Shown piece after piece: positions 6,135 through 20,747 of a stretch of DNA of 45,605 bases. A model generated the notes under the pieces. That model was not told the origin of the DNA. It searched no databases and saw only the letters and a list, made by a program, of their open reading frames with translations. The stretch covers positions 1-45,605 of the forward strand of contig JAIPJW010000009.1 of NCBI GenBank assembly GCA_021734075.1, read 5' to 3'. The first letter of the stretch is position 1. The number at the start of each line of letters is the position of its first letter. The translations under genes and the position numbers were made by a program. The stretch is from Cephaloticoccus sp. GTDB lineage: Bacteria > Verrucomicrobiota > Verrucomicrobiia > Opitutales > Opitutaceae.

Positions 6135-6349
6135 GGCTGGTGATGTTGGGAGCGTGGGGAACAAAACAAAAATCCCCTGTGCTGTCACGCTTCGCCGTGC
6201 GGGGAAATAGCTTAGACGCTTGGGCGGTAAGTTTCCGTTAGGGGAAATTGTATTTTGTCCAGAATTGGGCTGTTGGAGCCATTTCCACTGGACATATCCG
6301 GTCAAAGGGCGGAGGCAGACGAGCGAATTATCCCAGTATTTCCGTTCCC
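6135..6349. promoter_or_regulatory. Divergent intergenic region with two GGGGAAAT octamers
   Basis: This 215-base gap separates the divergently transcribed dioxygenase and sigma-factor genes and must hold both promoters. GGGGAAAT occurs at 6201-6208 and 6241-6248, exactly 40 bases apart; the same octamer lies upstream of the second TonB receptor (15878-15885). GGAAAT is the reported -35 of FecI-type sigma factors, but I find no convincing matching -10 here, so autoregulation is only a suggestion. Confidence 0.3.
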
Positions 6350-6877
6350 ATGCATTCCGAAGACCCAAATTTCAGCCGCTGGTTTGCGGCGGAGATTGAG
6401 CCCCACGCCCCGGCTCTGCGGTCCTGGTTGCGGGGTCGCTTCCCGGGTTTGACCGATCCGGATGATATTATGCAGGAGGCATTCTCCCGGGTTTGCCAGG
6501 CTCATCAAACCGGAGCGATCGCCACCCCGCGGGCCTTCCTTTTTACCACGGCGCGCAATCTGGCCCTCGATCGGATTCGCCGCCATCAAATTGTTAATAT
6601 CGAGTCCCTAGCGGAAATCGAAGCCCTGTCCGTCTATACAGAGGAAGACGGTGTCGCCGAGACCGTCGCCAAAACCCAGGAATTGGAAATATTGACCCAA
6701 GCCATCCAGTCATTGCCTGACCGTTGTCGGCAGGTGCTCACCTTGCGCAAGATCTACGGACTTTCGCAGCGGGAGATCGCGGTCCAGTTGGGCATCACCG
6801 AACATACCGTTGAGGCCCAGGTGGGCATTGGTATGCGCAAGTGTGCGGAATTTCTAGCTCGGCTCGGTTTGCCCTGA
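6350..6877 (+). CDS. ECF RNA polymerase sigma factor, module copy 1 (FecI-like)
   Basis: A 175-residue sigma-70 family ECF factor. Region 2 contains LTDPDDIMQEAFSRVCQA (about residues 34-51) and the helix TPRAFLFTTARNLALDRIRR; region 4 contains IQSLPDRCRQVLTLRKIYGL followed by SQREIAVQLGITEHTVEAQV, the HTH that reads the -35. This is the pattern of iron-starvation FecI-type factors, whose activity is released by a FecR partner when a TonB receptor is occupied. The upstream frame to 6248 is not conserved, so ATG 6350 (MHSEDPNFSRW) is used. The fecR-like gene follows after 4 bases. It aligns by eye throughout with the sigma factor at 14266-14808. Confidence 0.95.
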   Translation: MHSEDPNFSRWFAAEIEPHAPALRSWLRGRFPGLTDPDDIMQEAFSRVCQAHQTGAIATPRAFLFTTARNLALDRIRRHQIVNIESLAEIEALSVYTEEDGVAETVAKTQELEILTQAIQSLPDRCRQVLTLRKIYGLSQREIAVQLGITEHTVEAQVGIGMRKCAEFLARLGLP

Positions 6878-6881
6878 TCCC

Positions 6882-7910
6882 ATGTCCAACCCCCTCACAC
6901 CCTCCCCAGAGTCTGACATCATCGCGGCCACGGCAGCGACCTGGCTGGCACGGCGCGACCGCAAACTGACGGCTGCCGAGCAGGACGACTATCTGCAGTG
7001 GCTGGCGGCCGATCCACGCCATGCGCAGGCCATCGCCCGCCTGGAAAAGGCCTGGGGCGCCTTGGATGCCCTGGCGCAGTGGCGCCCGGAGCACAGCACC
7101 CGGCCCAATCCCGACCTTCTGGCGTCCCCACATCGCCGCAGTAAGATCTACTGGTTGTCCACGGCCGTGTTTGCGGCTGCCGCCGCGTTGGTCTTGGCTG
7201 CGGTGACCTGGTGGCAACCGGTGTCCCCGCCCCCGTCCGGGCTCGATTCCCTGCGGACCATCGTGGCCGACACTTATCGGAAGCAGACTTTGCCTGACGG
7301 ATCGGTGGTCGAGTTGAAGGCGGGCTCACAGCTGGAGATTGGTTTTACCACGGCCATACGTCGCGTGCGTTTGGTGGCGGGTGAGGTGCATTTCACGGTG
7401 ACCAAGAATCCGGCCCGGCCTTTCGTCGTGCATGTGGGGAAACTTGCGGTGCATGCCGTGGGCACGGCCTTCAACATCCGCATGCAACCCGACCAGATCG
7501 AGGTGCTGGTCACCGAGGGCAAGGTGCGCGTCGACGAGCCGGCAACTCCGCATCGTGCAATCTTGAGCACACCGCTGCTGGTGGCCGGAGAACGGGCCGT
7601 CATTTCCACGGTGGAGAATGAACCCGCCGTGCTGGTGGCCGGAATGAACGCCCGGCAGATTGAAACCGAGCTGGCGTGGCAACCCCAGCGGCTCGCCTTT
7701 GTCGGGATGCCGCTCAGCGAGATTTTGGCCGACTTCAACCGCCACAACTCCACCCAGATCTTGCTGGGCGATGCCGATCTGGCCGACCTGCGCATTGGTG
7801 GAACCTTCCGGGCCGACAATCCCGAGGCGTTTGTGCGGCTGCTAGAAACGGGCTTTGGTATTCGGGTCGAACGCAACGGCGAACAGACCGTGCTCTATCG
7901 CCAGCCGTGA
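6882..7910 (+). CDS. FecR-like anti-sigma/signal transducer, module copy 1
   Basis: A 342-residue inner-membrane regulator. Order of parts: an N-terminal DUF4880 domain (about 14-62, with TWLARRDRKLTAAEQDDYLQ and the WL..DP.H motif) that would bind the sigma factor in the cytoplasm; a hydrophobic segment (about 89-111); a periplasmic FecR domain (about 130-220, with LPDGSVVELKAGS, GEVHFTV and AVGTAFNIR); and a C-terminal DUF4974/STN-like domain (about 268-342, FVGMPLSEILADFNRHN) expected to contact the receptor's STN domain. It follows the sigma gene by 4 bases and precedes the receptor gene by 115. The full-length FecR architecture suggests a working signalling chain. Confidence 0.93.
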   Translation: MSNPLTPSPESDIIAATAATWLARRDRKLTAAEQDDYLQWLAADPRHAQAIARLEKAWGALDALAQWRPEHSTRPNPDLLASPHRRSKIYWLSTAVFAAAAALVLAAVTWWQPVSPPPSGLDSLRTIVADTYRKQTLPDGSVVELKAGSQLEIGFTTAIRRVRLVAGEVHFTVTKNPARPFVVHVGKLAVHAVGTAFNIRMQPDQIEVLVTEGKVRVDEPATPHRAILSTPLLVAGERAVISTVENEPAVLVAGMNARQIETELAWQPQRLAFVGMPLSEILADFNRHNSTQILLGDADLADLRIGGTFRADNPEAFVRLLETGFGIRVERNGEQTVLYRQP

Positions 7911-7925
7911 GTGCTCGCGGCAACC

Positions 7926-7954
7926 GGAAATTCTTTTCGGTTTTAATTTCTAAC
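7926..7954 (+). promoter_or_regulatory. Possible FecI-type promoter for TonB receptor 1
   Basis: The 115-base gap after fecR holds GGAAAT (7926-7931), matching the reported FecI-type -35. At 17 bases spacing stands TCTAAC (7949-7954), only a partial match to the TCYTTT-like -10. The AT-rich stretch between them is unlike its surroundings. A small CGGGG/CCCCG hairpin lies further down, around 7988-8001. Promoter status is speculative. Confidence 0.25.
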
Positions 7955-8025
7955 GGAAGTTGTGGACCGACCCGTCGTAATGGGCAACGGGGACATCCCC
8001 GCCATACCCTCGATTACCAAACACC

Positions 8026-11000
8026 ATGACTACCCTGTTCAAGTCTGTCGGATGCCGGTTGGTTTTTACCGCCGTTTTTCTCCTTGGTTTGCTGACCTCC
8101 GCGCAAGCCGCGGATGAAGGGACGACCAAGTCCTACGATCTGCCGGCAGCTGATGCCACCACCGCCTTCCAGAGCTTTACTGAACAGTCCGGGCACGAAC
8201 TCATCTATCCGGCAACGGTGGTGGCCGGGGTGAAGACCCAGGCGGTCAAGGGCGAATTCACCGCCCTCGAGGCGTTGAATCACATGCTGGCCGGGACGGA
8301 ACTGGTCGCCGTGCAGGACAAGGAATCCGGCGCGTTCGCCGTCAACCGGGTCTCCGACCCAAACGGCCAAAGGGTGGCGCAACAAAACAGCGACCACCCG
8401 GGCGTGACTGAGGATGCGGGCCAGAAGGCAGTCCGGCTGGAGCGCTATGAAGTGTTGGGCAGTCGTATCCGCCAGACTGAGGATTTCAGTCCCTCCCCGG
8501 TCTCTACCTACGACAACGATTTCATCCGTTCCTCCGGTGCGCTGACCCTGGCGGATTTTCTCAGCCGGCTGCCTCAAAACTATGCCGGCGTCTCTGCCGG
8601 ACGTGGGAGCACTCCCAACGAGCTCAATCCCGAGTTCGGTTCGCGCACCGAGACGGCGACCCCGCCATTCAATCTGGCCCTGGGTGTATCCGCCGTGCGG
8701 GCGACAGCGACCGGTCAGTCCGGGGTGGGCCTGCGCGGGCTGGGAGCGGGCTCCACGTTGGTCCTGGTCGACGGCCGTCGCGTCGCCCAGTCGAGTGCGG
8801 GCAATGCCGGCACCGACTCAAGGCAGGGATTTGTCGACTTGAACACCATCCCCCTCGGCATGGTGGAACGCATTGAAGTGATCACGGACGGGGCCTCCGC
8901 CATCTATGGGGCCGATGCGGTCGCCGGCGTGGTGAACATTGTGCTCAAGAAAAACTGGTCGGGCAGCGAGCTGTCGGCCAATTACAAGGGCGCGTTTGCC
9001 GGTGGCGGCCATGAACGCTCGATCTCCCTCATCCATGGGTTCAATTACGGGCCTTTGCATGGCACCTTGAGTCTGGATTTCTATCAACGGGCTGATCTCA
9101 AGGCGGACCAACGGGTATTTTCCAACCAACAAGATCACACCGGCATCGTTGAAGGATTTGATCCCACCACCGGGGCCTGGGTATATGGGAGTAATTTTCT
9201 GCTGAATTATGGCTATCCAGCGACCGTGCAAGCCCGTTCGGGCAATCTGAGCGGCATCACGGCCAATGGGGTTCCCACCCGGGTTGCCCTTACTCCGGGG
9301 GGCCTGACCAGTGATCCGACAACCACGGCGGGTTTCGTTGGCGTGGCTCCCGTGGGCACAGCCACCCTGGCCGCGGCCTCGAAAGCCCGTCTCGGCAACA
9401 CCGCCGAGTTTCTGGATTTGATTCCCCCCTCGGAACGGCAGGGGATTTCCCTGAGCTTGGGTTACACGCTGCCCAACAGCATGGAATTGTATTCCCGTTA
9501 CAGCTATTCCGACGTCAAATCCTCCTTCTCGAGCCAGCCGGCTGTTTTTAATGCGTCTGCTTCCACCGGGTTTGGCAATTTCGCCAGCATCGTGCCGGCG
9601 GCCTACAACCCCTTTGGCCAGGACGTGCTGGTGGGGATGATCGTCTATGATTTCGGCAGCATTGTGCAAACGACCAAAACCACGGCAGACAATGCGGTGC
9701 TTGGCCTGCGGGGATCTTTCGGCGAGACCTGGCAGTGGGATTTGTCCGCCGGTTGGCAGGAGCAGGATTTCAGCCGGGTGGTGCGCGATTTCAACTATGC
9801 CGCCATCACGGCCGCGCTGGCCAATCCAGACGCGTCGCAAAGATTCAATCCCTTTGTGGATTCCCGGGCGTCCGGGGCCCCCGACCAGTCGGCCCTCCTG
9901 GCAACGATGGCCCGTTACATCACTTTTGAAGGCGTGTCCCGGATGCGCACCCTTGATTTCATCGCGGATGGTGGTGTCTTCGAGTTGACGGGCGGCATGG
10001 CCAAGATGGCGGCCGGCTTCTCGTATCAATACGACGAAAATTCCGGCACGTCGGTCACGCCCAGTGTGGCCGTGACCCCGGTCCTGGCGACGGTAACCAC
10101 CGGTGGAAATCGCAAGACCACGGCGGTGTTTTCCGAACTTTCGATTCCGATCTTTGGCAAGGGAAATGCCCGTCCCGGCTTTGAACGGTTGAACCTGCAG
10201 ATTGCCGGTCGTTATGAAGACCGGAGCGATGCGGGCAGTGTGACGGTGCCCAAGGTTGGGTTTACCTGGACTCCAGTCAAACCGGTGATGCTCCGGGCCA
10301 GCTATTCGGAGGGATTCCGCGCTCCCTCGCTCACGGAGTATCAACAAATCGTGGGCAATACCTTTACCAGCAACACCGTGGTTGATCCCAAACGCGGCAA
10401 TACGGTTACCCGGGGAGTGGTGGTCACCCGCGGAGCCAATCCCAATCTCAAACCCGAGACCTCGAAATCGGAGTTCTACGGGGTGGTGGTTGAGCCGCCC
10501 CAGGCCAAAGGCCTGACCTTTCAGGTCAATTACTATCGCACGACACAGGAAAACATCATCCAGGTCCTGACGGAACAGCAGTTGGTGAACAACGAGGCGT
10601 TTTTCCCGGACCGCGTCACCCGGACGGCGCCGACCGCCACGGATATTGCCAATGGTTGGGCCGGCGCGGTCATTGGGGCGGACCGATCGCTGCTGAATTT
10701 TGGCAAGGTCATCAACCATTCGTTGGATTTTTCCACCGACTACCGTTTGCCGTGGGAGGAAGTGGGCCGCTGGCGAGTCGGCTTCAATGCCTCGCGGACT
10801 CTCAAGTCCGAGCGAGAAGTAAGACCCGGGGAACCCGCCGTTGAAGACCTGGGCGACACCTTGAGCCCGCCCGAATGGCGAATGTCGGGCTCCCTGTTCT
10901 GGACCAAGGGCCCGCTCAATGCATCCTTGTTTGTCAACTACCTGAGCAGCTTTGACACCAACACGGCCGGCAACACGCGGTCCCCCCTTGCGATTCCCTC

Positions 11001-11205
11001 GCAAAAAGTGGTCGATGTGCGCATGGGTTATGAGTTCCAAAAAGGAGTGGTCGGCGAATATCTGAAGGGCTCCAGGTTGAGCTTTGGGATTGGCAACTTG
11101 CTGGACGAGCAGCCGCCATTCTCGGATACGGTCTTTGGCTACAATGGCGCCCTGCACAGCCCCCTGGGTCGGACCTATGAGCTGTCCTTGAGCTGCCCAT
11201 TCTGA
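8026..11205 (+). CDS. STN-domain TonB-dependent outer-membrane receptor, module copy 1
   Basis: A 1059-residue transducer-type receptor. The signal peptide covers about residues 1-29; an STN (secretin/TonB N-terminal) domain spans about 35-108 (SYDLPAADATTAFQSFTEQS, 'LEALNHMLAGT'); a TonB-box-like stretch is near 137-147 (RLERYEVLGSR); the plug runs about 155-325 (GVGLRGLGAGSTLVLVDGRR, ERIEVITDGASAIYGADAVA); the rest is a beta-barrel ending in YELSLSCPF, with the usual terminal Phe. STN receptors both import a ligand and signal its presence to FecR. No SusD partner is adjacent, so this is not a Sus-type glycan pair. The ligand is unknown; siderophore, peptide or protein are all possible. Confidence 0.93.
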   Translation: MTTLFKSVGCRLVFTAVFLLGLLTSAQAADEGTTKSYDLPAADATTAFQSFTEQSGHELIYPATVVAGVKTQAVKGEFTALEALNHMLAGTELVAVQDKESGAFAVNRVSDPNGQRVAQQNSDHPGVTEDAGQKAVRLERYEVLGSRIRQTEDFSPSPVSTYDNDFIRSSGALTLADFLSRLPQNYAGVSAGRGSTPNELNPEFGSRTETATPPFNLALGVSAVRATATGQSGVGLRGLGAGSTLVLVDGRRVAQSSAGNAGTDSRQGFVDLNTIPLGMVERIEVITDGASAIYGADAVAGVVNIVLKKNWSGSELSANYKGAFAGGGHERSISLIHGFNYGPLHGTLSLDFYQRADLKADQRVFSNQQDHTGIVEGFDPTTGAWVYGSNFLLNYGYPATVQARSGNLSGITANGVPTRVALTPGGLTSDPTTTAGFVGVAPVGTATLAAASKARLGNTAEFLDLIPPSERQGISLSLGYTLPNSMELYSRYSYSDVKSSFSSQPAVFNASASTGFGNFASIVPAAYNPFGQDVLVGMIVYDFGSIVQTTKTTADNAVLGLRGSFGETWQWDLSAGWQEQDFSRVVRDFNYAAITAALANPDASQRFNPFVDSRASGAPDQSALLATMARYITFEGVSRMRTLDFIADGGVFELTGGMAKMAAGFSYQYDENSGTSVTPSVAVTPVLATVTTGGNRKTTAVFSELSIPIFGKGNARPGFERLNLQIAGRYEDRSDAGSVTVPKVGFTWTPVKPVMLRASYSEGFRAPSLTEYQQIVGNTFTSNTVVDPKRGNTVTRGVVVTRGANPNLKPETSKSEFYGVVVEPPQAKGLTFQVNYYRTTQENIIQVLTEQQLVNNEAFFPDRVTRTAPTATDIANGWAGAVIGADRSLLNFGKVINHSLDFSTDYRLPWEEVGRWRVGFNASRTLKSEREVRPGEPAVEDLGDTLSPPEWRMSGSLFWTKGPLNASLFVNYLSSFDTNTAGNTRSPLAIPSQKVVDVRMGYEFQKGVVGEYLKGSRLSFGIGNLLDEQPPFSDTVFGYNGALHSPLGRTYELSLSCPF

Positions 11206-11212
11206 CCCGGGT

Positions 11213-11230
11213 GGTTGCGAATTCGCAACC
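11213..11230. promoter_or_regulatory. Perfect 18-base palindrome between receptor 1 and thioredoxin gene
   Basis: GGTTGCGAATTCGCAACC is a perfect two-fold palindrome 8 bases after the receptor stop and 40 bases before the next start. As DNA it would suit a dimeric regulator; as RNA it folds to a 7-bp stem with an AATT loop but lacks a following U-run, so it is not a canonical terminator. No counterpart is present at the same place in module copy 2. Confidence 0.5.
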
Positions 11231-11269
11231 CAGGACACAACCCTGCAAGAGGAGCAATATATCCGCATT

Positions 11270-13693
11270 ATGAATAACAACCGACCGATGTCCTTTTTGC
11301 TCCGCTTGCTGGGCACCCTTCTGGTGGTGGGGCCCGCGACCAGCGCCACCACTGCCGTCGCTCAGGAGCCGCCGCCGCGTCCTGCCTTTCGGGAGAGCTT
11401 TGCCAAGTTGAAGGCCGGGGAGAGCGTGCCTGATTTCTTGGTTCTTTCGGCCGACGGAAAGGAAGCCAGATTTTCGGACTATGCCAGGGGCAAGACGGTG
11501 GTGCTTGATTTCTGGGCGACGTGGTGCGGCCCTTGCCAGCAGGCCATGCCCCATTTGGAGGAGACCTACCGCAGCTATGCCGATCAGGGTGTGGTGGTCC
11601 TGGGCGTTTGCAGTTTCGACACGCGGGAGGCTTACGCCGGGTGGCTGGAGAAAAACCGGGAGCGCTACACCTTTCCAACCGTTTTTGATCCCATGGGCAA
11701 ACCTCGCAAGGGTCATCCAGAGGATATGGCCCAAACCGTGATGGTCCAATTGAGTGGGGGGCCGGTTACACCCTTGCCAACCACCTTGGTTGTCAGTTCC
11801 GCCGGCAAACTGGTCGGCTCCTACGTCGGGTTTCAGGCCAGCGGCTCCGGGGCCTTGGCAAGCTTGCTCATGCGCGCTGGAATCAACCTGAAGCCGGAGG
11901 ACCGGCCCGGGACCGTGCCGGCCGCAAATTTGGTAAAACCAGCACCGTTGCCGGCTACTCCGGCCAAGATGGAATTATTGCAAGCCGGGGTCCCGGCGCC
12001 GGACTTCGTCATGTTGGATGCAACCGATAACGAGGTCAGACTGGCCGACTTCAAGGGCAAGGTGGTGATCCTGGATTTTTGGGCGACCTGGTGCGGGCCC
12101 TGCCTTACCGCCATGCCCCATTCCCAGGCCTTGGCCGCCAAATACAAGGACCAGGATGTGGTGGTGATTGCATCGGGCACGAGCGATTTCACGGCCAAGT
12201 TCAAGGAGTGGATTCCTCAAAACCAGACCAAGTATCCCGACATCAAATTCTATTTTGATCCGCATGAGCGCAACTCCGCCGATTTCGGGCTGCGGGCCTC
12301 GAGTCGGCTCTACGGCGTGAGCAGCATTCCCACCCAGTTTGTCCTGGACCGGGATCATCGCATCGTGGCGACCGTGGTGGGTAACAATGGTGAAGCCGAT
12401 GCCCGCCTTGATGCCGCGCTGGCCAAGGCTGGCGTGACGGTGGACGCCAACCGCGTCGCCGCCGGGGAGAGGCAATTGCAGGATGCGGCGGACAAAGAAG
12501 CCGCCCGGGCCGAGGCCCTCGCTGAAGATCTCAGGAATCCCCGGCCAAAATTCCGGGAGGGCTACGGCAAGCTCAAGACCGGCCAACCGCTGGCTAACTT
12601 CACCGCCCAGGATGAAAACGGGAAAATGGTGCAATTTGCCGATCTGGCCCGGGACAAGACGGTCGTCATAAGTGTCTGGTCCGCCAGCTACGGGCTGCCG
12701 GATGAAGCCCTTGCGTTCCAGGATGCATGGGCCCGGAAATACGCAGATCAAGGGGTGGTTTTTCTCGGCCTTGGTGCCTATGGGACGCGGGAAGATTTCG
12801 ATGTCTGGATGGCAAACAACCGGGCGAAAATATCTTTTCCCGTGCTTTTTGATCCGGCTGGAAAACTCACTCCGCCCAAACCGGTCAACCAGATGAATGA
12901 CACTGAGAAGGCTGCGTTCAAGGTGGCCTCCAAGGACTATTACGCCAAGGTTCTGCCCATGCAGCTTGCCGGGGGCATGATGGCGCCGGTGCCGCACCAA
13001 ATCGTTGTGGGCCCTGACGGCAATTTGCTCGGCTTCTATGTGGGGTCCGGACCCCCGACCGCCGATTCACTTGGCAATCTGCTCATCCGGGCCGGCATCA
13101 AGCTCGCGGCCGAGGATATGCCACGCAAGGTGTTCACGGTTGAGGAATCAAAGGAAGCACCCCCACCGCCCAAAGTGGATTTGCTTAAAGTGGGAGCTGA
13201 AGCGCCCGACTTTCCCACCACCGATGTGGACGGCAAGTTGGTCAAACTGTCGGATTTCCGGGGCAAGGTGGTCATTCTGGACTTTTGGGCCACTTGGTGT
13301 GGACCCTGCCTTGCCTCCATGCCCCACACGCAGGAAGTGGCCGCCCATTACAAAGATCAGGGGGTCGTCGTGCTGGCTTCCTGCACCAGTGACAAGCGAA
13401 AGTCATTTGAAACCTGGGTGAAGCGTTACCAAAGCCAGTATCCCGATATCCGCTTCGCGCATGATGCCCTGGAGAAATCCAATGATCGGGCCTCACGGCT
13501 GCTCTATGGCGTCGGCGGAATCCCCCAGCAGTTCATCATCGATCGAAATGGCAAGGTGGTGGCGCTGGTAACGGGATACCTGAAAGGCGAGGCCATCCTG
13601 GATGCCGCCTTGGCCAAGGCGGGTATCCAGGTTGATCCTGCCCTCATCGCCAAGGGGGCGGCCGATCTTGAGGCCCGCAATGCCATGCGATGA
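11270..13693 (+). CDS. Exported four-domain thioredoxin-fold (TlpA-like) protein
   Basis: An 807-residue protein with an N-terminal signal (about 1-32), thus periplasmic or surface-facing. Four TlpA/ResA-type domains are visible in order. Domain 1 has WCGPC at C86/C89 and cis-Pro P170; domain 2 has C275/C278 and P354; domain 3 has the matching stretch WSASYGLP (470-477), with both cysteines lost (Y474, P477) but P575 kept; domain 4 has C677/C680 and P752. Domains 1 and 3 share FRE-KLK openings, YADQGVV and TRE-W segments; domains 2 and 4 share HYKDQ-like, S-DKR/SDF and QYPDI-like segments. The gene therefore looks like a tandem duplication of a two-domain unit. Active CxxC domains would reduce disulfides or peroxides. 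It follows receptor 1 by 64 bases; purine-rich AGAGGAG lies about 17 bases before the ATG. Confidence 0.9.
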   Translation: MNNNRPMSFLLRLLGTLLVVGPATSATTAVAQEPPPRPAFRESFAKLKAGESVPDFLVLSADGKEARFSDYARGKTVVLDFWATWCGPCQQAMPHLEETYRSYADQGVVVLGVCSFDTREAYAGWLEKNRERYTFPTVFDPMGKPRKGHPEDMAQTVMVQLSGGPVTPLPTTLVVSSAGKLVGSYVGFQASGSGALASLLMRAGINLKPEDRPGTVPAANLVKPAPLPATPAKMELLQAGVPAPDFVMLDATDNEVRLADFKGKVVILDFWATWCGPCLTAMPHSQALAAKYKDQDVVVIASGTSDFTAKFKEWIPQNQTKYPDIKFYFDPHERNSADFGLRASSRLYGVSSIPTQFVLDRDHRIVATVVGNNGEADARLDAALAKAGVTVDANRVAAGERQLQDAADKEAARAEALAEDLRNPRPKFREGYGKLKTGQPLANFTAQDENGKMVQFADLARDKTVVISVWSASYGLPDEALAFQDAWARKYADQGVVFLGLGAYGTREDFDVWMANNRAKISFPVLFDPAGKLTPPKPVNQMNDTEKAAFKVASKDYYAKVLPMQLAGGMMAPVPHQIVVGPDGNLLGFYVGSGPPTADSLGNLLIRAGIKLAAEDMPRKVFTVEESKEAPPPPKVDLLKVGAEAPDFPTTDVDGKLVKLSDFRGKVVILDFWATWCGPCLASMPHTQEVAAHYKDQGVVVLASCTSDKRKSFETWVKRYQSQYPDIRFAHDALEKSNDRASRLLYGVGGIPQQFIIDRNGKVVALVTGYLKGEAILDAALAKAGIQVDPALIAKGAADLEARNAMR

Positions 13694-13712
13694 TCCCTTT
13701 GTGTTGTTGTGC

Positions 13713-13749
13713 GGGTCGGGGGTTCTGCCCAAGGGCGGTCTCCCGACCC
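13713..13749 (+). promoter_or_regulatory. Stem-loop between thioredoxin gene 1 and luxR-like gene 1
   Basis: Outer arms GGGTCGGG (13713-13720) and CCCGACCC (13742-13749) enclose an inner GCCC/GGGC hairpin (13727-13730, 13733-13736). It lies between the thioredoxin stop and the chosen luxR-like start at 13767. A different but equally strong stem-loop occupies the same position in module copy 2 (20334-20364). No U-run follows, so it may stabilise or attenuate the mRNA. Confidence 0.5.
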
Positions 13750-13766
13750 ATGCAAACCACCAGCCC

Positions 13767-14051
13767 ATGGTATCCGCCCGTGCCAATATGGTGACGTCAC
13801 CGCTCCCTGTGCCCCCGACCATGAGTTGGCGGGAAATGGCGGCCGGTCTGCGCGTGCCGGCCGATCCGCAGCTGGCAGATCTCACCCCGGCGGAGCAGGT
13901 GGTGGTCACCTACCTGCGGCAGGGTATGTCCAACAAGGAAATCGCCCGGGCGCTCGGCAAGGCCGAGGCCACCGTGAAACATCAAGTCAGTGCCTGCCTC
14001 GCCAAGTTTGGCGTGCGCACCCGCACCCGGCTGATCGCCCTCCTTAGCTAG
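13767..14051 (+). CDS. Stand-alone LuxR/GerE-type HTH protein, module copy 1
   Basis: A 94-residue protein ending in a GerE-type HTH: LTPAEQVVVTYLRQGMSNKE, then IARALGKAEATVKHQVSACLAKFGVRTRTRLIALL. It has no receiver, autoinducer or sensor domain, only a ~38-residue N-terminal tail containing MSWREMAAGL. The start at ATG 13767 (MVSARAN) is chosen because the paralogue at 20379 also begins MVS; in-frame starts further upstream (for example 13680, overlapping the thioredoxin stop) are possible. By family it binds DNA as a transcription regulator, perhaps of the module itself. It lies 73 bases after the thioredoxin gene, probably in the same transcript. Confidence 0.8.
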   Translation: MVSARANMVTSPLPVPPTMSWREMAAGLRVPADPQLADLTPAEQVVVTYLRQGMSNKEIARALGKAEATVKHQVSACLAKFGVRTRTRLIALLS

Positions 14052-14056
14052 AGCTT

Positions 14057-14080
14057 CCACCTTCGCCAAGGCTATGGTGG
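14057..14080. repeat. CCACCTTCGCCAAGG-type palindrome after luxR-like gene 1
   Basis: CCACC/GGTGG arms (14057-14061, 14076-14080) with inner GCC/GGC pairs form a hairpin five bases after the stop. An almost identical element occurs at 20701-20726, there overlapping the end of the second luxR-like gene. This type of 'CTTCGCCAAGGCTATGG' intergenic repeat is common in several bacterial phyla. The remaining sequence to 14265 contains the promoter below and nothing else recognisable. Confidence 0.6.
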
Positions 14081-14157
14081 ACAAGATGGCGGACGGGCTT
14101 CTCGCAGGTTCCTGTTGCGCTGAGTTAACGCTTCACAGCGTTCGTGCTGGCAGGCAC

Positions 14158-14187
14158 TTGAAAAATAAATCCAGTTCGGGATATTTT
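14158..14187 (+). promoter_or_regulatory. Predicted sigma-70-like promoter for module copy 2
   Basis: TTGAAA (14158-14163) and TATTTT (14182-14187) are spaced 18 bases apart in an AT-rich patch about 80 bases upstream of the sigma-factor start. This fits a housekeeping promoter and would make the second module independent of read-through from the first. Confidence 0.45.
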
Positions 14188-14265
14188 TCTTTAATTGGTT
14201 TGTCGCGATGGAGTGTCTAAGGGTCGAGTGGTCCTGTCTCCGGCTGCTTTTCCTGTTTCCAAACG

Positions 14266-14808
14266 ATGTCCCTGCAAGATTCTGAACAAGCCCGCTGGTT
14301 TGCTGACGAAGCCCTGCCGCATGAGCCCATGCTCCGCGGGTGGTTGCAGGCGCGCTTCCCGACCCTGCCGGACATCGATGACCTGGTGCAGGATGCTTAC
14401 ACGCGGCTCCTGCGAGCCCATGAGACTGGGCCCATCGCCTGTGTGAAGGCCTTCCTCTTTGTTACGGCCCGCAATCTGGCCCTGAACAGCCTGCGGCATC
14501 TGCGCGTCGAACGTCCCTACCGGGTGCAGGAAATTGATCCCCTGTCGGTGTTGGATGACACGGCCAGCGTGCCGGAGAGTGTGGCCCGGGCGGAGGACTT
14601 CCAGCTTTTGGTCCAGGCGATTCAATCTTTGCCGGCCCGTTGTCGCCAGATCATGACGTTGCGCAAGATCTACGGGCTTTCGCAGCGCGAAGTCGCGGAC
14701 CGCCTGAATATATCCGAGCACACGGTGGAGGCCCAGGGCGCCATCGGCCTCGCCAAATGCATCAAATTTTTTCGCCGGCACGGATACCTCGCCGGACCCC
14801 GCCCATGA
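14266..14808 (+). CDS. ECF RNA polymerase sigma factor, module copy 2 (FecI-like)
   Basis: A 180-residue ECF sigma factor paralogous to the one at 6350-6877. Region 2 shows LPDIDDLVQDAYTRLLRAHE and KAFLFVTARNLALNSLRHLR; region 4 shows IQSLPARCRQIMTLRKIYGL followed by SQREVADRLNISEHTVEAQG. The identical LTLRKIYGLSQRE/MTLRKIYGLSQRE and EHTVEAQ segments in the two copies suggest overlapping promoter recognition. The fecR-like start codon overlaps its stop (ATGA at 14805-14808), implying translational coupling and balanced production of sigma factor and its partner. ATG 14266 gives an N-terminus that aligns with copy 1 (ARWFADEALPHEP vs SRWFAAEIEPHAP). Confidence 0.95.
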   Translation: MSLQDSEQARWFADEALPHEPMLRGWLQARFPTLPDIDDLVQDAYTRLLRAHETGPIACVKAFLFVTARNLALNSLRHLRVERPYRVQEIDPLSVLDDTASVPESVARAEDFQLLVQAIQSLPARCRQIMTLRKIYGLSQREVADRLNISEHTVEAQGAIGLAKCIKFFRRHGYLAGPRP

Positions 14809-15854
14809 AACCCATCGATTATTATTCGTCCGACGAGAGTGGCCCCGAACAGGAGGCCGCACTCTGGGTGCTGCGTCAGGACCGCGGCTTGACCGCGGAA
14901 GAACAGGATGCCTTTTCCCAATGGCTAGCCGAAAACCCGCTCCACCGCGAGGCCCTGGCCGCGCACCGTTGGGGCTGGGAGGAACTCGACCGGCTGGCCG
15001 GCTTGCAGGCCACTGTGCATGCCCCGCCCGATCCCGACCTGCTGCAGCCAACCCGTCGCAGAGCCTGGGGACGCATCATTCGCTTGTCCCGGCAGACGCA
15101 AAAAATTCTCTGGCCGCTGGCGGCGGCGGCGGCGCTGGCAACCGGGTATTTCATGTGGCGTCCAGTGAAGGAGGAAAAGATGGATCTGGCGCCACCGTCG
15201 ACCGCGCTGGCGGCGCCGATCGAGCAGCGCACCCTGGAAGACGGTTCGGTCGTGGAATTGAATCGGGGTGCGGCGCTTGTCGTGGCCTACACCGCGCAGG
15301 AAAGACGCATCACGCTCACCCGCGGCGAGGCGAATTTCAAGGTGGCCAAGAATCCCAACCGACCGTTCATCGTCAATGCCGGCGGGGTCGAGGTGCGGGC
15401 CGTGGGCACGGCGTTCAATGTGCGTCTCGACAACACCGCGGTGGAGGTGCTGGTGACCGAGGGCAGGGTGCGCGTTGACCAGACCATCGGCAGCACGGAC
15501 ACCGTGGCCGTGCCGTTGCTCGAGGCGGGCAATCGAGCCGTCGTCGCGCTGTCTCCGGCCGCGCCCGCCCCGGAAGTGGAGAGTTTGACCCCGGTTCAGG
15601 TGGAGGAGCGTCTGGCCTGGCAGCCCCGCCTGCTGGATTTTACCGATGCGCCGATGCGCGACATCGTGGCGGAGTTCAACCGGCGCAACCCGGTGCGGCT
15701 GGTGCTGGGCAGTTCCGAACTGGCCGACATGCGGCTCAGTGCCAATTTCCGCTCGGACAACGTCGAAGGCTTCGTGCGCCTGATGGAGTCGAACTTCGGC
15801 ATGCAGTCCGAGTGGAAAGGGGAGACCCAGATTGTCCTCACCCGGGCCCGCTAG
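14805..15854 (+). CDS. FecR-like anti-sigma/signal transducer, module copy 2
   Basis: A 349-residue membrane protein starting at the ATG that overlaps the sigma-factor stop. It has DUF4880 (about 14-62: RQDRGLTAEEQDAFSQWLAE), a transmembrane stretch (about 100-118), the FecR domain (about 138-225: LEDGSVVELNRGAAL, GEANFKV, AVGTAFNVR, VLVTEGRVRVDQ) and a C-terminal DUF4974 region (FTDAPMRDIVAEFNRRNPVR, ending with the MESNFGMQSE segment). All parts align with the copy at 6882-7910. It should hold the sigma factor until the receptor's STN domain signals. A longer frame from 14640 exists but lies inside the sigma gene and is not conserved. Confidence 0.93.
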   Translation: MKPIDYYSSDESGPEQEAALWVLRQDRGLTAEEQDAFSQWLAENPLHREALAAHRWGWEELDRLAGLQATVHAPPDPDLLQPTRRRAWGRIIRLSRQTQKILWPLAAAAALATGYFMWRPVKEEKMDLAPPSTALAAPIEQRTLEDGSVVELNRGAALVVAYTAQERRITLTRGEANFKVAKNPNRPFIVNAGGVEVRAVGTAFNVRLDNTAVEVLVTEGRVRVDQTIGSTDTVAVPLLEAGNRAVVALSPAAPAPEVESLTPVQVEERLAWQPRLLDFTDAPMRDIVAEFNRRNPVRLVLGSSELADMRLSANFRSDNVEGFVRLMESNFGMQSEWKGETQIVLTRAR

Positions 15855-15879
15855 TCCGATGCTTCCGGCGCGACCTCGG

Positions 15880-15908
15880 GGAAATCGGGATATCTGAAAA
15901 AAACTTTT
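15880..15908 (+). promoter_or_regulatory. Candidate FecI-type promoter at TonB receptor 2
   Basis: GGAAAT (15880-15885, inside GGGGAAAT) is followed after exactly 17 bases by ACTTTT (15903-15908), close to the reported FecI-type GGAAAT-N17-TCYTTT pattern. If real, transcription would begin at or past the annotated ATG at 15910, which would favour the in-frame GTG at 15943 as the translation start. Confidence 0.35.
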
Positions 15909-15909
15909 A

Positions 15910-18900
15910 ATGGAAATCTGCCGCTCGGGGTTTGTTACCAATGTGAAACCTGACTCTACCCTGTTGGCGGGAGTTTCCCGCCAGTGCCGCAGCGCGTTGT
16001 GGATCTGCCTCGCGCTTTTTGCCCTCTCACTCAATGCCGCTCCCGCCGAAACCGTGCGCTCCTTCAATGTGCCGGCTGGTGAGGCGGGCCAAACGCTCAA
16101 GCAGTTTGCCGAGCAGGCGAAATGCGAGATCGTGTTCCTGCCGGCCGCGGTCAAGGGACTCCAGACCAATGCGGTCAGTGGCGAGCTGACCCCGCGGGCC
16201 GCTCTCGACCAGATGCTGGCGGCAACCGGCCTGGTGGTTTCCGAGGATGAAAAAACCGGCGCCTTTGCTATCAAGGCCAAGGCTGAAAGGCCCAGCGAAA
16301 AAAACGCTGAGCGGGCGGCGCAAATCAGCGACCGCCCGGCAAAGGCAATTTTGACAGATGGAGACTTGGTGACTTTGGAGGAATACGCGGTCACCGGCTC
16401 ACGCCTGACGCTCAACGCGGGAGAGCAGCCGGTCCAGCCCGTGTTGACCTACACCGCCCTGGACATCGAGCGCACCGGTGCGAGCGACCTCGGCCAGTTG
16501 CTGCAGTATATCCCTTCGCTCACGAGCTACTCCACGGGAATAGCGACGGAGACCCTCAACGGTTCCGTGATCAGTGGCATGGTGGCTCAGACCAACGGCC
16601 GCACCACCGCACAATTACGCGGCGGTGATCAGACCTCCACGCTGCTGCTGGTGGATGGCAAACGCGTCGCCAATACCGCCATCCGGAACGTCGGCGGCAA
16701 CGGCTATGACCTCGGCGGCATTCCGCTCTCAGCTATCGACCGCGTGGAAGTGCTCCTCGACGGGGCCAGTGCCATCTACGGTGCTGACGCGATCCACGGT
16801 GTCATCAACGTCATTCTTAAGAAGCGCTACTCCGGCACCGAACTCAGATTCAGTTACGACAACACTTTCGACAAGGACGCCGGGATCAAGACCGTCAGCC
16901 TCTCGCATGGGTTCTCCACGGGCAAGCTGTCCGGTCTGGTCACCCTTTCTGCCTCGGACAGCAATCTGATGTTGCTGGCTGATCGCCGCATTCTGGCGAC
17001 TTATGATCGTCGCACCTTGGGTGGCACCTCGGATGGTTCCGGGTCCACCTCGGCCTTTTATAACGGGGCAGGATCGGTCAACCGCGCTTCGGGCATCTTG
17101 CCCGGCCTGACCTCGTTGCGGGCCTCGATTCCAACCAACAGCAATGGACAGAATCTCACTGTGACGGATTATGCCAACGCTCCGGTTCCGGTAGGTGGAA
17201 ACATTCCCGACATCGCCAGTGCAACTACGGCCGTGAAAAGAAAAAGTGGATATGCGCGCTTGGCCTATGATGTCGAGCCCTGGCTGCAGGTGGCGACGAT
17301 GGTTCGTTACGGCGAGAACCGATCAACGGACAACGGCCGGTATAGGATTATGGAAAACGTGACCATCCCAGTCGGTTACCCCGGCAACGTCTTTGGGGTC
17401 CCGATTCGCCTGCAGAAGAATTTCACTGATCTGCCACCCGTCTATAGCATAGTCGAATCGATCAATAGTGAGTATGCGCTCTCGTTTACCGGCAAATTGC
17501 CCGGGGACTGGCGCTACGAAGCCTCAGTCAATTTTTTGCGCGGTGAGAACAACCAGATTCCCACGCGAACGGCCGATGGCTCCGTGATCAACTATGCGGT
17601 CACAGCTTCCACAATGACCCAGAAAGTCGCCGCCGCTCAGGCGGCCGGCAACCCGCCGATCCTGATATACGACAGTCGTTCACAATCCCCCAACGCTCCC
17701 GGGGCCTTGGATCAGTTCTGGGTCAATCCCAATCCCACGGTCTTGCGCGATCTGAACGAGATCTGGACCTATGCAGGGCAGGTTGAGGGCAAGCTCTTCA
17801 ATCTCCCGGCCGGCGAAGTTCGCAGCGTGTTGGGCTTTGAATACCGTGAGGACACCGTATCTTTTCCCGCTGCCCTGGGGGGGTCGCTCTGGCCGAGTAT
17901 TCCCGAGCGGAAAATAACTTCATTCTTTATGGAGGCCCGGATTCCTCTGTTCTCCGCTAAAAAGAGCCTGCCACTGCTGCAACAGCTCGACTTGAATTTT
18001 GCCCTTCGCACCGAGGACTACAACGATGTCGGCGGTGCCACGACTCCGCGTTATGGAGTGGCCTGGCGGCCGATCAAGAGCTTGCTTGTGCGCGGGTCCT
18101 ACGGTGAGGGCTTCCTGGTGCCACAGCTTTACCGCACCGCCGGGCCAACCAGCGCGACCACGGTTCCGTGGTCGATTTTCGCCTCCAGCGGGGCGGATCC
18201 GGGTCGTGGCAATACGGTCAATCCGGGCACAGTCACCGTGATCGGTGGCGGCAATCCCGGCCTGGACCCGCAGAAATCCGAGCATGCGACCTACGGGATC
18301 GTTGTCGATGTGCCCAAGGTCGAGGGCCTGTCCTTCTCGTTCGATCTGTTCGACAACAATTACACTGATGGCTTTGGTTCGCTGAGCACGTTGGCTGACC
18401 GGGTTAACTACAAGCCCGAGACAGTTACCCGGGGGCCGAACCTGCCTACCGACCAACCCGGCTGGCTGGGGCCGGTCACTGCCTACGATGGCCGGACCAT
18501 CAACATCGCCAAGGCTCGCACGGCCGGGTATAATTTCGGCCTGCGTTGGTTTAAGAAAACCGGCTGGGGTGACCTGACTTTCAATTCCTCGGGCGAGCGC
18601 ATTGTCCGCGACGAGCAGCAGATCGTGCCCAACGGACCTTACACCGCCACGATCAACAAGCGCTACCGGCCGATGCGGGTGACGACCTCGCTGTTCTGGT
18701 CGCACAACGCGTGGGATGCCGGGGTCACCAACATGTTTGGTGGCGAATATTGGGTGGACACCTCCAACGCCACGCTCGCGCCCTCGCGATACACCGATTC
18801 GGTGATGCGCTGGGACTTCAATGCGAGCTACGATTTTGGTCGTCGTCCTGGATTCGGATCGAAAGGCAGCGCCTGGTGGCAGCGTGCCTTGGGCGACAGC

Positions 18901-19029
18901 AAGTTGCGTGTGACAATCATCAATGCCTTCGACACCGAGCCGCCGCTCGATGTGCGCGGTTACTTCAGTTCGGCGGTCATCGATCCGCGGCTCCGCCGCT
19001 ACGTGATCGACGTCACGAAACGGTTCTGA
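15910..19029 (+). CDS. STN-domain TonB-dependent outer-membrane receptor, module copy 2
   Basis: A 1039-residue receptor. A hydrophobic export signal lies at about residues 29-46; the STN domain at about 50-124 (SFNVPAGEAGQTLKQFAEQA); a TonB-box-like stretch at 155-166 (TLEEYAVTGSRL), matching the one in copy 1; the plug has AQLRGGDQTSTLLLVDGKRV and DRVEVLLDGASAIYGADAIH; the barrel ends in RRYVIDVTKRF with a terminal Phe. The first 11 or more residues before the signal peptide look superfluous, and a GTG at 15943 would give a more typical signal. The barrel loops differ from copy 1, so the two receptors probably take different ligands while using related signalling parts. The gene lies 55 bases after fecR and 48 before the thioredoxin gene. 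Confidence 0.92.
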   Translation: MEICRSGFVTNVKPDSTLLAGVSRQCRSALWICLALFALSLNAAPAETVRSFNVPAGEAGQTLKQFAEQAKCEIVFLPAAVKGLQTNAVSGELTPRAALDQMLAATGLVVSEDEKTGAFAIKAKAERPSEKNAERAAQISDRPAKAILTDGDLVTLEEYAVTGSRLTLNAGEQPVQPVLTYTALDIERTGASDLGQLLQYIPSLTSYSTGIATETLNGSVISGMVAQTNGRTTAQLRGGDQTSTLLLVDGKRVANTAIRNVGGNGYDLGGIPLSAIDRVEVLLDGASAIYGADAIHGVINVILKKRYSGTELRFSYDNTFDKDAGIKTVSLSHGFSTGKLSGLVTLSASDSNLMLLADRRILATYDRRTLGGTSDGSGSTSAFYNGAGSVNRASGILPGLTSLRASIPTNSNGQNLTVTDYANAPVPVGGNIPDIASATTAVKRKSGYARLAYDVEPWLQVATMVRYGENRSTDNGRYRIMENVTIPVGYPGNVFGVPIRLQKNFTDLPPVYSIVESINSEYALSFTGKLPGDWRYEASVNFLRGENNQIPTRTADGSVINYAVTASTMTQKVAAAQAAGNPPILIYDSRSQSPNAPGALDQFWVNPNPTVLRDLNEIWTYAGQVEGKLFNLPAGEVRSVLGFEYREDTVSFPAALGGSLWPSIPERKITSFFMEARIPLFSAKKSLPLLQQLDLNFALRTEDYNDVGGATTPRYGVAWRPIKSLLVRGSYGEGFLVPQLYRTAGPTSATTVPWSIFASSGADPGRGNTVNPGTVTVIGGGNPGLDPQKSEHATYGIVVDVPKVEGLSFSFDLFDNNYTDGFGSLSTLADRVNYKPETVTRGPNLPTDQPGWLGPVTAYDGRTINIAKARTAGYNFGLRWFKKTGWGDLTFNSSGERIVRDEQQIVPNGPYTATINKRYRPMRVTTSLFWSHNAWDAGVTNMFGGEYWVDTSNATLAPSRYTDSVMRWDFNASYDFGRRPGFGSKGSAWWQRALGDSKLRVTIINAFDTEPPLDVRGYFSSAVIDPRLRRYVIDVTKRF

Positions 19030-19077
19030 ACCAGTGCTTACGACAGGAAATCCGTCCAGCAACACTACCCAATTCCC

Positions 19078-20316
19078 ATGAAAATCATTCGTCTACTGAC
19101 TCTGTCAGCCCTGTTTTCCGTCGCCGCACTGGCCGAGACCACGGTGCCGCAGTTCAACCCGCCCGTCGAGCTCGATCCCGAAGTTCTGGCCGCGCCCGAC
19201 GCTGACGCGGCGTGGAAATCCATCGCACAGATGAACAACATGGACTACCTTATGGAGTTGATCGCCGAAGCCAAAGGTGCTGACAAAGAAGCCAAGCTGC
19301 GCTTTATTTATCTCCGCATTCTGCGGGTGACAGCCGCCTTTTATCAAAAGTATCCGAATGATCCCCGGCGATGGTTTTGCGTGCGCGATATGATGAGTGC
19401 GACCAAGGCGGTGGCGAACCCCGACGGCACCCCGCGAGGCGCGATCGAGGATTTCGTGTGGGACCAGACCACTTGGGTGGTATGGATTCCGCAAATTAAA
19501 GCACTCGCCCAGGCAGCGGCGACCGCGCCCGATGCACCGGACGAGTTCAAGATGGCCACAGAAGCGGCATTGCCCGGCGGACTCCGGAGTCTCGTGGCCG
19601 CCGCCGCCAAAGCGGCGGAGGCCAAGCAGTCGTTCGACTTCGGCCCCTTGAAGGCCGAGTTGCTCCGTCTCGCCGCGAAATTCCCAACCGTGAGAACCTT
19701 TACGCAATATCCCAACTATTACGTGCAGTTTCGCACCAAGACCGGCGGAACGAAGGAGGAGGTGCTTGCCGACCTGCAGGAGTTCGTCGCCCAGCCCAAC
19801 GCGGCTCTGAGCGAGAGCGCGCAGAAGGAAATCAACAAGCTCGCGATGGCCGATCGTCCGCTGGAGATTGTGTTCACCGCCGTAGACGGCCGCAAGGTCG
19901 ATCTCAAGGACTACCGCGGCAAGGTCGTCCTCGTGGATTTCTGGGCCACGTGGTGCGGGCCGTGCATCAAGGAGATTCCGAACATCAAGCAGGTCTATGC
20001 TGATTATCATGACAAGGGTTTCGAGATCATCGGCATCGCGTTGGAAAATGCGCGCTTATCCATGAAGGATACGCCTGAACAGGCGGCGACGAAACACGAG
20101 AAAGCCAGACAGGTGTTAAATGATTTCACGGTGAAGAACGAGATGTCCTGGCCCCAATATTACGACGGCAAGTTTTGGAAGAACGACATCTCCACCCGTT
20201 TCGAAATTGGTTCGATCCCGGCGATGTTCCTTATCGATCAGAACGGTAACCTGGTCTCCACCGAGGCCCGGGGTCCCAAACTCGAAGCCGAAGTGAAGCG
20301 CCTGCTGAAACTTTAG
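19078..20316 (+). CDS. Exported TlpA-like thioredoxin protein with N-terminal helical domain
   Basis: A 412-residue protein with a signal peptide (MKIIRLLTLSALFSVAALAE). Residues about 25-250 are mostly helical (ADAAWKSIAQMNNMDYLMEL onward) and not recognised. The C-terminal third is a TlpA/ResA-type thioredoxin domain: VDLKDYRGKVVLVDFWATWC, redox pair C293/C296 (WCGPC), and cis-Pro in IGSIPAMFLIDQNG. Such proteins reduce or exchange disulfides in the periplasm. It takes the position of the four-domain protein in module copy 1, but with one domain and an extra N-terminal region, so the slot rather than the exact protein is conserved. It follows receptor 2 by 48 bases and precedes the second luxR-like gene by 62. 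Confidence 0.9.
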   Translation: MKIIRLLTLSALFSVAALAETTVPQFNPPVELDPEVLAAPDADAAWKSIAQMNNMDYLMELIAEAKGADKEAKLRFIYLRILRVTAAFYQKYPNDPRRWFCVRDMMSATKAVANPDGTPRGAIEDFVWDQTTWVVWIPQIKALAQAAATAPDAPDEFKMATEAALPGGLRSLVAAAAKAAEAKQSFDFGPLKAELLRLAAKFPTVRTFTQYPNYYVQFRTKTGGTKEEVLADLQEFVAQPNAALSESAQKEINKLAMADRPLEIVFTAVDGRKVDLKDYRGKVVLVDFWATWCGPCIKEIPNIKQVYADYHDKGFEIIGIALENARLSMKDTPEQAATKHEKARQVLNDFTVKNEMSWPQYYDGKFWKNDISTRFEIGSIPAMFLIDQNGNLVSTEARGPKLEAEVKRLLKL

Positions 20317-20333
20317 TTGTGTGGGTTATGCAC

Positions 20334-20364
20334 CGGGCCGATCCCACGCAGGTGGGTCGGCCCG
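20334..20364 (+). promoter_or_regulatory. Strong stem-loop between thioredoxin gene 2 and luxR-like gene 2
   Basis: CGGGCCGA (20334-20341) pairs with TCGGCCCG (20357-20364), and CCCAC (20343-20347) with GTGGG (20352-20356), leaving one bulged T and a GCAG loop. It sits 18 bases after the thioredoxin stop and 15 before the chosen luxR-like start, so it could hide the translation start or protect the upstream mRNA. No U-run follows. Confidence 0.55.
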
Positions 20365-20378
20365 ACCGCCTGATTCTC

Positions 20379-20714
20379 ATGGTATCACTCCGTTCAAATC
20401 AACTCCCAGCCAAGCCAACGGTGGTTGCCCAAGAACTGAAGCGTCCGGCACAGTTGAAAACTGGTCAGGTTGTGTCAGCCACCACCAGTTGGCGTCAGCT
20501 GGCAATGGACCTGGCGAACCCACCCGGCGCGACCTTGGTCGGCCTGACTCCGGCCGAACAGGTGGTGATCACTTATTTGCTGCAAGGCTTGAGCAACAAG
20601 GAGATCGCCTGGATCCTGGGTAAATCCGCCTTCACCGTGAAGCACCAGATCAGCTCCTGTTTGGCCAAGTTCGGCGTCAGCTCCCGCACCCGGCTGATCG
20701 CCCACCTTCGCTAA
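20379..20714 (+). CDS. Stand-alone LuxR/GerE-type HTH protein, module copy 2
   Basis: A 111-residue protein with a C-terminal GerE HTH (LTPAEQVVITYLLQGLSNKE, IAWILGKSAFTVKHQISSCLAKFGVSSRTRLIAHL) and no sensor domain. It is plainly paralogous to the protein at 13767-14051: both have SWR-x-x-A about 20 residues before the HTH, and the same LTPAEQVV, SNKEIA, TVKHQ and CLAKFGV blocks. The N-terminal tail is 17 residues longer. ATG 20379 (MVSLRSN) is chosen by agreement with MVSARAN in copy 1; ATG 20328 is an alternative. The last four codons and the stop lie inside a palindromic repeat. The role in regulating the module is inferred from context. Confidence 0.8.
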   Translation: MVSLRSNQLPAKPTVVAQELKRPAQLKTGQVVSATTSWRQLAMDLANPPGATLVGLTPAEQVVITYLLQGLSNKEIAWILGKSAFTVKHQISSCLAKFGVSSRTRLIAHLR

Positions 20715-20726: not shown

Positions 20727-20747
20727 CAGGCTCCTCCTACGCTGAGA

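Follow-up and report, generated by a model that had tools for sequence, protein, structure and literature searches.

Two adjacent five-gene sets on a 45,605-nucleotide stretch of Cephaloticoccus sp. DNA (Opitutaceae; contig JAIPJW010000009.1 of assembly GCA_021734075.1; the whole stretch is hereafter called the window) look like two cell-surface-signalled import operons of the FecI/FecR/FecA kind. Each set, here called a copy, encodes an extracytoplasmic function (ECF) sigma factor, a FecR protein, a TonB-dependent receptor, an exported thioredoxin-fold protein and a small GerE-type helix-turn-helix (HTH) protein. We give about even chances to the explanation that they import, on a signal from the surface, a disulfide-bearing peptide or protein, which would be reduced and, in the copy 1 type, cut in the periplasm.

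Results

Gene content and recurrence of the cassette

All ten genes lie on the plus strand, near the positions at which an original prediction, made from the sequence alone, had placed them, and Pfam confirms the order and families that it proposed: ECF sigma factor (PF04542 and PF08281), DUF4880 plus FecR, Plug plus TonB barrel with STN, AhpC-TSA/Redoxin and GerE. In both copies a sigma factor with regions 2 and 4 adjoins a FecR-domain protein; the Pfam STN match is below the cutoff in receptor 1 and barely above it in receptor 2. Overlooked in that prediction was a gene for an M16 peptidase (20862-23672), which follows copy 2 on the same strand. The source assembly totals 3.53 Mb across 212 contigs and contains seven FecR matches.

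The cassette recurs in relatives. An alignment of the small HTH was searched against 200 genomes of the same family, and the best 43 rows yielded 40 regions (the window's two rows and one inside a region already included were omitted). The full order ECF-FecR-receptor-thioredoxin-HTH was found in 23 of these 40, representing 16 genomes and six genera; five others have receptor-thioredoxin-HTH without ECF-FecR (in two of these, L068 and L082, the contig begins at or just before the receptor), three have thioredoxin-HTH and nine something else. The HTH profile seldom matches beyond the family: 13 of 273 genomes across the order match at E<=1e-18, and 12 of the 13 belong to the family itself. The original prediction had proposed a search for the five families in the same order elsewhere; since they do recur in order in related genomes, the opposite outcome, thioredoxin and HTH genes not conserved beside the trio, did not occur.

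A pattern-based scan with the FecR pair, over one genome per species, gave 35 loci from Opitutae or other Verrucomicrobia, counting Pelagicoccus and Puniceicoccaceae among them. The ECF-FecR-receptor trio is general among them, and a thioredoxin follows the receptor in L013, L014, L021, L022, L025/L033 (one contig) and L027. In a thin Bacteroidota comparison by plasmid searches, one Hymenobacter plasmid has a TlpA gene adjoining a TonB receptor gene and another does not; among the 15 features listed with a Neorhizobium pqqL gene no receptor was seen, these gene tables being incomplete.

Coupling of receptor and thioredoxin

To sample loci by FecR, every fourth row of the FecR listing was taken and counted by hand (37 anchors: 34 newly taken regions and three earlier ones). 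A thioredoxin lies behind the receptor in seven of the 37 and an HTH in four; thus most ECF-FecR-receptor trios in the family have neither. The thioredoxin follows 7 of 11 receptors of one subfamily versus 0 of 26 others, and the HTH 4 versus 0, a split that is partly circular, since the window and its neighbours supplied the seed of the receptor hidden Markov model (HMM). Where 5 kb or more could be seen downstream, the thioredoxin counts are 7/11 versus 0/19 (p=0.0002). Given this seeding, the receptor tree (85 rows, built by FastTree, which gave long-branch warnings) tests the link better. On it the thioredoxin label changes 7 times, versus 28.6 when shuffled, with L021 labelled as lacking the thioredoxin owing to a split receptor open reading frame (ORF), where the gene does follow; in one starred clade 40 of 49 rows have the thioredoxin. 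The FecR tree (95 rows) requires 19 changes versus 28.7. Receptor and thioredoxin are therefore the more stable unit, and the ECF-FecR pair seems to have been exchanged. Chance adjacency is ruled out by the receptor tree, the recurrence of the order and the FecR-centred sample.

The five-gene coupling originally proposed thus stands as a recurring order, and not as a fixed block: the thioredoxin tracks a receptor subfamily, ECF-FecR is sometimes missing, and most trios lack the last two genes. Flanking genes vary among genomes while receptor and thioredoxin remain together. In L089, L091 and L105, where ECF-FecR is missing, there is a divergent protein of about 400 amino acids with a C-terminal GerE domain (Pfam was run on the L105 protein only). 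Some cassettes contain an additional gene. In L081 a 612-residue protein with a C-terminal DsbD_N domain (7476-9314, minus strand) lies between two thioredoxin genes and hints at a thiol relay, and in L069 a 674-residue protein with a sub-cutoff BNR-repeat (sialidase-type) match (9988-12012, plus strand) lies between receptor and thioredoxin.

STN domains and promoter motifs

An STN HMM, seeded from the window and from FecR-linked receptors, detects the domain in 43 of 43 subfamily receptors preceded by FecR. Among 16 receptors called without FecR (for eight of which this status is uncertain, because they lie near the end of the examined stretch), 12 have no STN and four do. On inspection, two of these four (L097 and L161_12166) do have FecR; in L146 the contig is cut 0.6 kb upstream, and L176, with no FecR call in the 1.0 kb of preceding contig, may be a true exception. 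It seems, then, that where ECF-FecR is missing the STN domain is usually missing too.

A motif, TAACGGAAA-N13/14-CGTC, scores above 10 bits before the receptor gene in 47 of 66 loci, versus 0.4 in shuffled sequence. The same motif precedes the thioredoxin in 2/101 (0.6 shuffled), the HTH in 5/57 (1.0) and the M16 gene in 0/12 (0.2), and it was seen before sigma genes in 7/71 forward and 17/71 reverse. When trained on loci without a thioredoxin, the motif was recovered in 26 of 39 loci with one, and the converse training recovered it in 15 of 27, the reverse strand giving 0 in both and shuffles 0-0.2. The stretch from receptor to HTH is predicted to be one transcription unit. The original proposal of a receptor-signalled operon fits both the STN and the motif evidence.

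Both window receptors carry a predicted promoter motif: class I in copy 1 and, in copy 2, class II, which has GGTTTGT instead of CGTC. The copy 2 site sits at the annotated receptor start, was missed by the upstream scan and was found only by the window scan, for which 1.2 sites above 11 bits are expected in a shuffled window. Because the annotated start, 15910, falls inside this predicted promoter, translation probably begins further on, at 15943, 15964 or 15997. For classes defined after the sites had been seen, and over labelled rows only, the motif class changes once on the sigma tree, versus a shuffled mean of 7.4 and a minimum of 5 in 300 shuffles. That tree has 92 rows (31 class I, 8 class II, 52 neither, one both), and L044 is labelled class I within its class II part, at an unresolved fork. 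That the two classes track the sigma tree, with one in each window copy, suggests insulated circuits.

The window scan also returned a class I site inside sigma 1 (6607-6639) and two weaker class I sites without clear meaning (5798-5830, plus strand, 13.7 bits; 28295-28327, minus strand, 11.2 bits). A PhyH-type dioxygenase gene, facing away from copy 1, lies behind a predicted class I site (Table 1) and so may be a member of the sigma 1 regulon.

Relationship of the two copies

By local alignment the copies are 53% identical in sigma (92/173), 46% in FecR (146/317), 33% in the receptor (315/965), 39% in the thioredoxin (44/113, domain only) and 65% in the HTH (51/79), and the scores for all five families far exceed those of 100 shuffles. 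Adjacent sets, an identical gene order and five homologous families would all be expected had a single five-gene unit recently been duplicated in tandem, as the 'two copies' of the original prediction could be taken to mean. We reject such a duplication as very improbable, because the receptor, FecR and sigma trees separate the copies: on all three, copy 1 is sister to L013 and copy 2 is placed elsewhere. In addition, their promoter classes differ. On the receptor tree, receptor 1 adjoins L078 (genome G119, same genus), whose order is ECF-FecR-receptor-thioredoxin-HTH-M16, and receptor 2 is sister to L071, from another genus. We infer that two separate systems, differing in promoter specificity, have ended up as neighbours, copy 2 having probably been placed between HTH-1 and the M16 gene.

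An alternating chain of thioredoxin domains

The copy 1 thioredoxin (P0004) has four thioredoxin-like domains, of which three carry WCGPC and the other has no cysteines; that of copy 2 (P0009) has a single domain behind an N-terminal part without a Pfam match. The number ranges from one to seven among receptors of one subfamily. We labelled each domain of 62 multi-domain proteins, the window's included, as a (CxxC at the aligned site) or x (CxxC absent). Strict alternation is seen in 44 of the 62, with 27 of the pattern a-x-a-x-a; the tally is 159 a and 97 x, the final domain is a in 59/62, and two adjacent x domains occur in only two proteins. On the domain tree the label changes 4 times versus 77 when shuffled. 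On this evidence from sequence, the x domains are an old lineage that has been kept, rather than scattered decay.

P0004-like matches (E<=1e-60) occur in 56 of 200 genomes of the family and in 6 of 337 across the phylum, all six from the same family. A further 40 regions centred on such genes were taken, of which 39 (all but L179) yielded gene calls. Their layouts vary: the gene may follow ECF-FecR-receptor or a lone receptor, may precede a LuxR-type gene encoding about 400 residues, or may face an M16 gene. In L142-L145, L147, L148, L151, L155, L156, L159 and L164 a five-domain gene (three CxxC) precedes the LuxR-type gene on the same strand; three of these loci (L147, L155, L156) also have a receptor gene, which converges on it.

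The M16 peptidase

M16 proteins 63-73% identical to that of the window (P0011) lie near cassettes in genomes G037, G152, G071, G093, G147, G119, G161 and G197, from two genera, and at seven of those loci within 6 kb of a multi-thioredoxin gene. The near-M16 thioredoxins of G093 are single-domain, the G152 contig starts inside the receptor, and the M16 gene of G161 and of G197 lies ahead of the sigma gene. The window's own M16 gene is 7.2 kb from the multi-thioredoxin gene, with copy 2 between. The M16 gene is more likely the partner of copy 1, because receptor 1 is near L078, whose order ends in HTH-M16, and receptor 2 is sister to a locus from another genus.

By sequence, the closest solved chains to P0011 are 9ldy and PqqL. 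Weaker matches are 6b03 and 6brs ('putative zinc protease'), which we take to be FusC. As far as tested, receptor 1 is not a member of the FusA family: none of the 17 solved chains matching it (E<=1e-5) is named FusA, in a set whose FusA content was unchecked and in a search that did not include receptor 2.

Discussion

How might such a cassette work? Ligand binding at the receptor would be signalled through the STN domain to FecR, freeing the cassette's own ECF sigma factor, which would fire the promoter between fecR and the receptor gene and so drive receptor, thioredoxin and HTH together. The exported thioredoxin proteins would then reduce disulfides of the ligand, for which a peptide or small protein is the likeliest candidate. 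In the copy 1 chain the inactive domain beside active ones may hold the substrate, and the neighbouring periplasmic M16 peptidase would cut the opened chain. Electrons could come from a DsbD-like membrane protein elsewhere, and the source genome encodes one DsbD_TM protein. The small HTH, expressed along with the rest, might bind DNA and so adjust the activity of the operon or of genes next to it.

A fuller version, which we hold only tentatively, is a redox-and-protease-associated import, so far of Opitutaceae only, in which signalled receptors, a PDI-like (protein disulfide isomerase-like) alternating TlpA chain that unfolds disulfide-bonded peptides or proteins, and M16 digestion are combined, with parallel systems kept apart by sigma specificity. 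If true, it would add a dedicated thiol-reducing step to surface-signalled import and would account for how disulfide-rich peptides could serve as food. The cassettes would then offer a natural series, from one to seven domains, for probing the role of inactive thioredoxin domains, and the paired promoter classes a ready test of insulation between parallel ECF-FecR circuits.

Several observations weigh against the import of a reduced and cut peptide or protein. Some concern the M16 peptidase. Relatives of P0011 (E<=1e-120) occur in at least 147 of 200 genomes of the family, and among about 150 matches listed only eight (counting that of the window) have a P0004-type match at a distance of about 10 kb or less, as judged by eye. 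Shared ancestry may explain the linkage, because these eight loci come from two genera. In a third genus (G169, G055 and G155; L149, L150 and L165) the M16 protein facing a multi-thioredoxin gene is only about 30% identical to P0011 and there is no receptor, and cassettes without M16 are common. Others concern the remaining parts. Multi-thioredoxin genes also precede the LuxR-type genes without a same-strand receptor; several cassettes, among others L124, L125 and L134, lack the HTH, whose family also ends an ApbE/DUF3570 cluster; and receptor 1 was not close to any named solved protein importer in our search. Finally, 19 of 66 receptors, copy 2 included, have no motif above threshold in the scanned stretch, the promoter classes are post hoc, and the STN and receptor HMMs were seeded from FecR- and thioredoxin-linked receptors.

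We consider it fairly unlikely that the thioredoxins serve envelope machinery rather than the ligand, either in the redox upkeep of the receptor, FecR or other exported cysteines, or as isomerases in receptor assembly. TlpA/ResA-type proteins usually have envelope protein clients, and so close a tracking of the receptor subfamily is what a dedicated assembly factor would show. Such a factor does not explain why domain number varies from one to seven within one subfamily, or the M16 gene near some multi-domain types.

Import of a metal or haem carrier is unlikely. Here the thioredoxins would free the metal by reduction, or by opening a disulfide of the carrier, for example a methanobactin-like peptide. 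The ECF-FecR-STN receptor layout is common to FecI/FecR/FecA and mbnI/R/T, and the NCBIfam model that scores best on receptor 1 represents haem receptors, though far below its cutoff (94.5 versus 316.85 bits). Set against this, no siderophore, haem or copper gene was seen among the few neighbours scanned, a scan that was not a systematic search, and M16 and multi-thioredoxin proteins are not known to belong to those systems. Methanobactin import (mbnI/R/T) itself was rejected, the sigma_mbnA model scoring 56.6 bits versus a cutoff of 350.

Uptake of a glycan, as by a Bacteroidota polysaccharide locus with the thioredoxin and HTH as loosely attached extras, seems improbable. A melibiase-like gene lies downstream in the window, the window and L022 each have enolase-superfamily genes, L021 and L022 each have aldo/keto reductase genes, and both the BNR-type protein of L069 and the class I promoter facing the PhyH gene would suit it. 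Yet flanking genes are what differs between genomes, and receptor and thioredoxin are what stays together; SusD and glycosidases were not systematically searched.

The proposed import of disulfide-bearing peptides or proteins can also be set beside known systems. With FecI/FecR/FecA the cassettes share the ECF sigma factor, the FecR-domain protein, the STN-bearing TonB receptor and the sigma-type promoter motif before the receptor gene. The Fec layout continues downstream with an ABC importer for ferric citrate; the genes that follow here encode exported thioredoxins, the small GerE HTH protein and, in part of the cassettes, an M16 peptidase.

The receptor YddB is also called PqqU. As PqqU is reported to import pyrroloquinoline quinone (PQQ; PMC12124388), an M16 neighbour alone is no proof of protein import. 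Receptor-plus-M16 import is described for Fus and PqqL in PMC6793856, and the likeness to FusA/FusC and YddB/PqqL lies in a TonB receptor with a single-chain M16 peptidase, P0011 itself matching PqqL, and in an M16 gene near receptor-thioredoxin cassettes in the window and eight more genomes of two genera. Unlike those systems, the cassettes here add a thioredoxin chain, ECF-FecR and the HTH. For clusters lacking FusC, the same source (PMC6793856) suggests that enzymes of the cytochrome c peroxidase type reduce the imported substrate; its main text mentions neither thioredoxin nor FecR nor disulfide, and thioredoxin, TonB, disulfide and sigma are likewise absent from that of a review of M16 proteases (PMC12731061). 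The cassette was not found described in the open-licence PMC articles searched, as far as their accessible text goes.

The chain resembles TlpA/ResA/DsbE thiol reductases in its WCGPC motif, ResA-like domain and export signal (by eye), and differs in having up to seven domains, including the conserved CxxC-less lineage. With PDI (a-b-b'-a') it shares active and inactive thioredoxin domains in one chain, by sequence; its domains are TlpA-like and mostly in strict alternation, and the PDI-like architecture was presumably built independently.

Features of the window

Table 1. Genes and predicted promoters of the two cassettes and their neighbours in the window.
Feature	Position	Strand	Basis and remarks
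Copy 1 ECF sigma factor	6350..6877	+	Pfam PF08281/PF04542; in sigma tree with class I promoters
Copy 1 FecR (DUF4880+FecR)	6882..7910	+	Pfam; 81% identical to locus L013
Predicted class I ECF promoter, TAACGGAAG-N13-CGTC, before receptor 1	7949..7981	+	23.0 bits
Copy 1 TonB-dependent receptor with STN	8026..11205	+	Pfam Plug and barrel; STN under cutoff, also by family HMM seeded partly from receptor 1
Copy 1 four-domain TlpA/ResA-type protein (P0004), a-a-x-a	11270..13693	+	Pfam; signal peptide by eye
Copy 1 small GerE HTH (HTH-1)	13767..14051	+	Pfam GerE; gene call; longest ORF from 13602
Copy 2 ECF sigma factor	14266..14808	+	Pfam; in sigma tree with class II promoters
Copy 2 FecR	14805..15854	+	Pfam; start from gene call
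Predicted class II ECF promoter, TAATGGAAA...GGTTTGT, before receptor 2	15906..15938	+	22.9 bits
Copy 2 STN-TonB receptor ORF	15910..19029	+	Pfam, STN HMM; real start likely at or after 15943
Copy 2 single-domain TlpA-type protein (P0009), N-terminal extension	19078..20316	+	Pfam
Copy 2 small GerE HTH (HTH-2)	20319..20714	+	Pfam
M16 peptidase (P0011), single chain; probably copy 1 partner	20862..23672	+	Pfam PF00675/PF05193; by eye, an HFLEH motif and a signal peptide; near cassettes, relatives of 63-73% identity
Predicted class I ECF promoter facing divergent PhyH gene (5223-6134, minus strand)	6210..6242	-	22.5 bits

The start of HTH-1 is that of the gene caller; the longer ORF would overlap the thioredoxin gene by 92 bases. 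An HTH profile built from both window genes scores them at 304.9 and 237.4 bits, with the next site in the genome at 39.5; a seven-row profile that also holds both gives 140.5 and 137.6, then 56.7 bits. Elsewhere, in L086 (7237-13689), the small HTH family ends a cluster that encodes ApbE, DUF3570, Ig/NHL-repeat proteins and a small thioredoxin and in which no receptor was seen; L079 resembles this cluster by its gene sizes.

Scans for sigma-70 promoters (7 versus 4.4 expected) and terminators (22 versus 19.8) were also run on the window, and with the latter ratio a hairpin after fecR-1 (7922-7942) is only suggestive. A strong inverted repeat, CTTCGCCGGAG...CTCCGGCGAAG, without a T run by eye, lies between HTH-2 and the M16 gene at about 20743-20775. 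A 20-base sequence, CTTCGCCAAGGCTATGGTGG, occurs in near-identical form (two mismatches) just past HTH-1 (14061-14080) and across the end of HTH-2 (20706-20725), where 0.03 matches are expected by chance.

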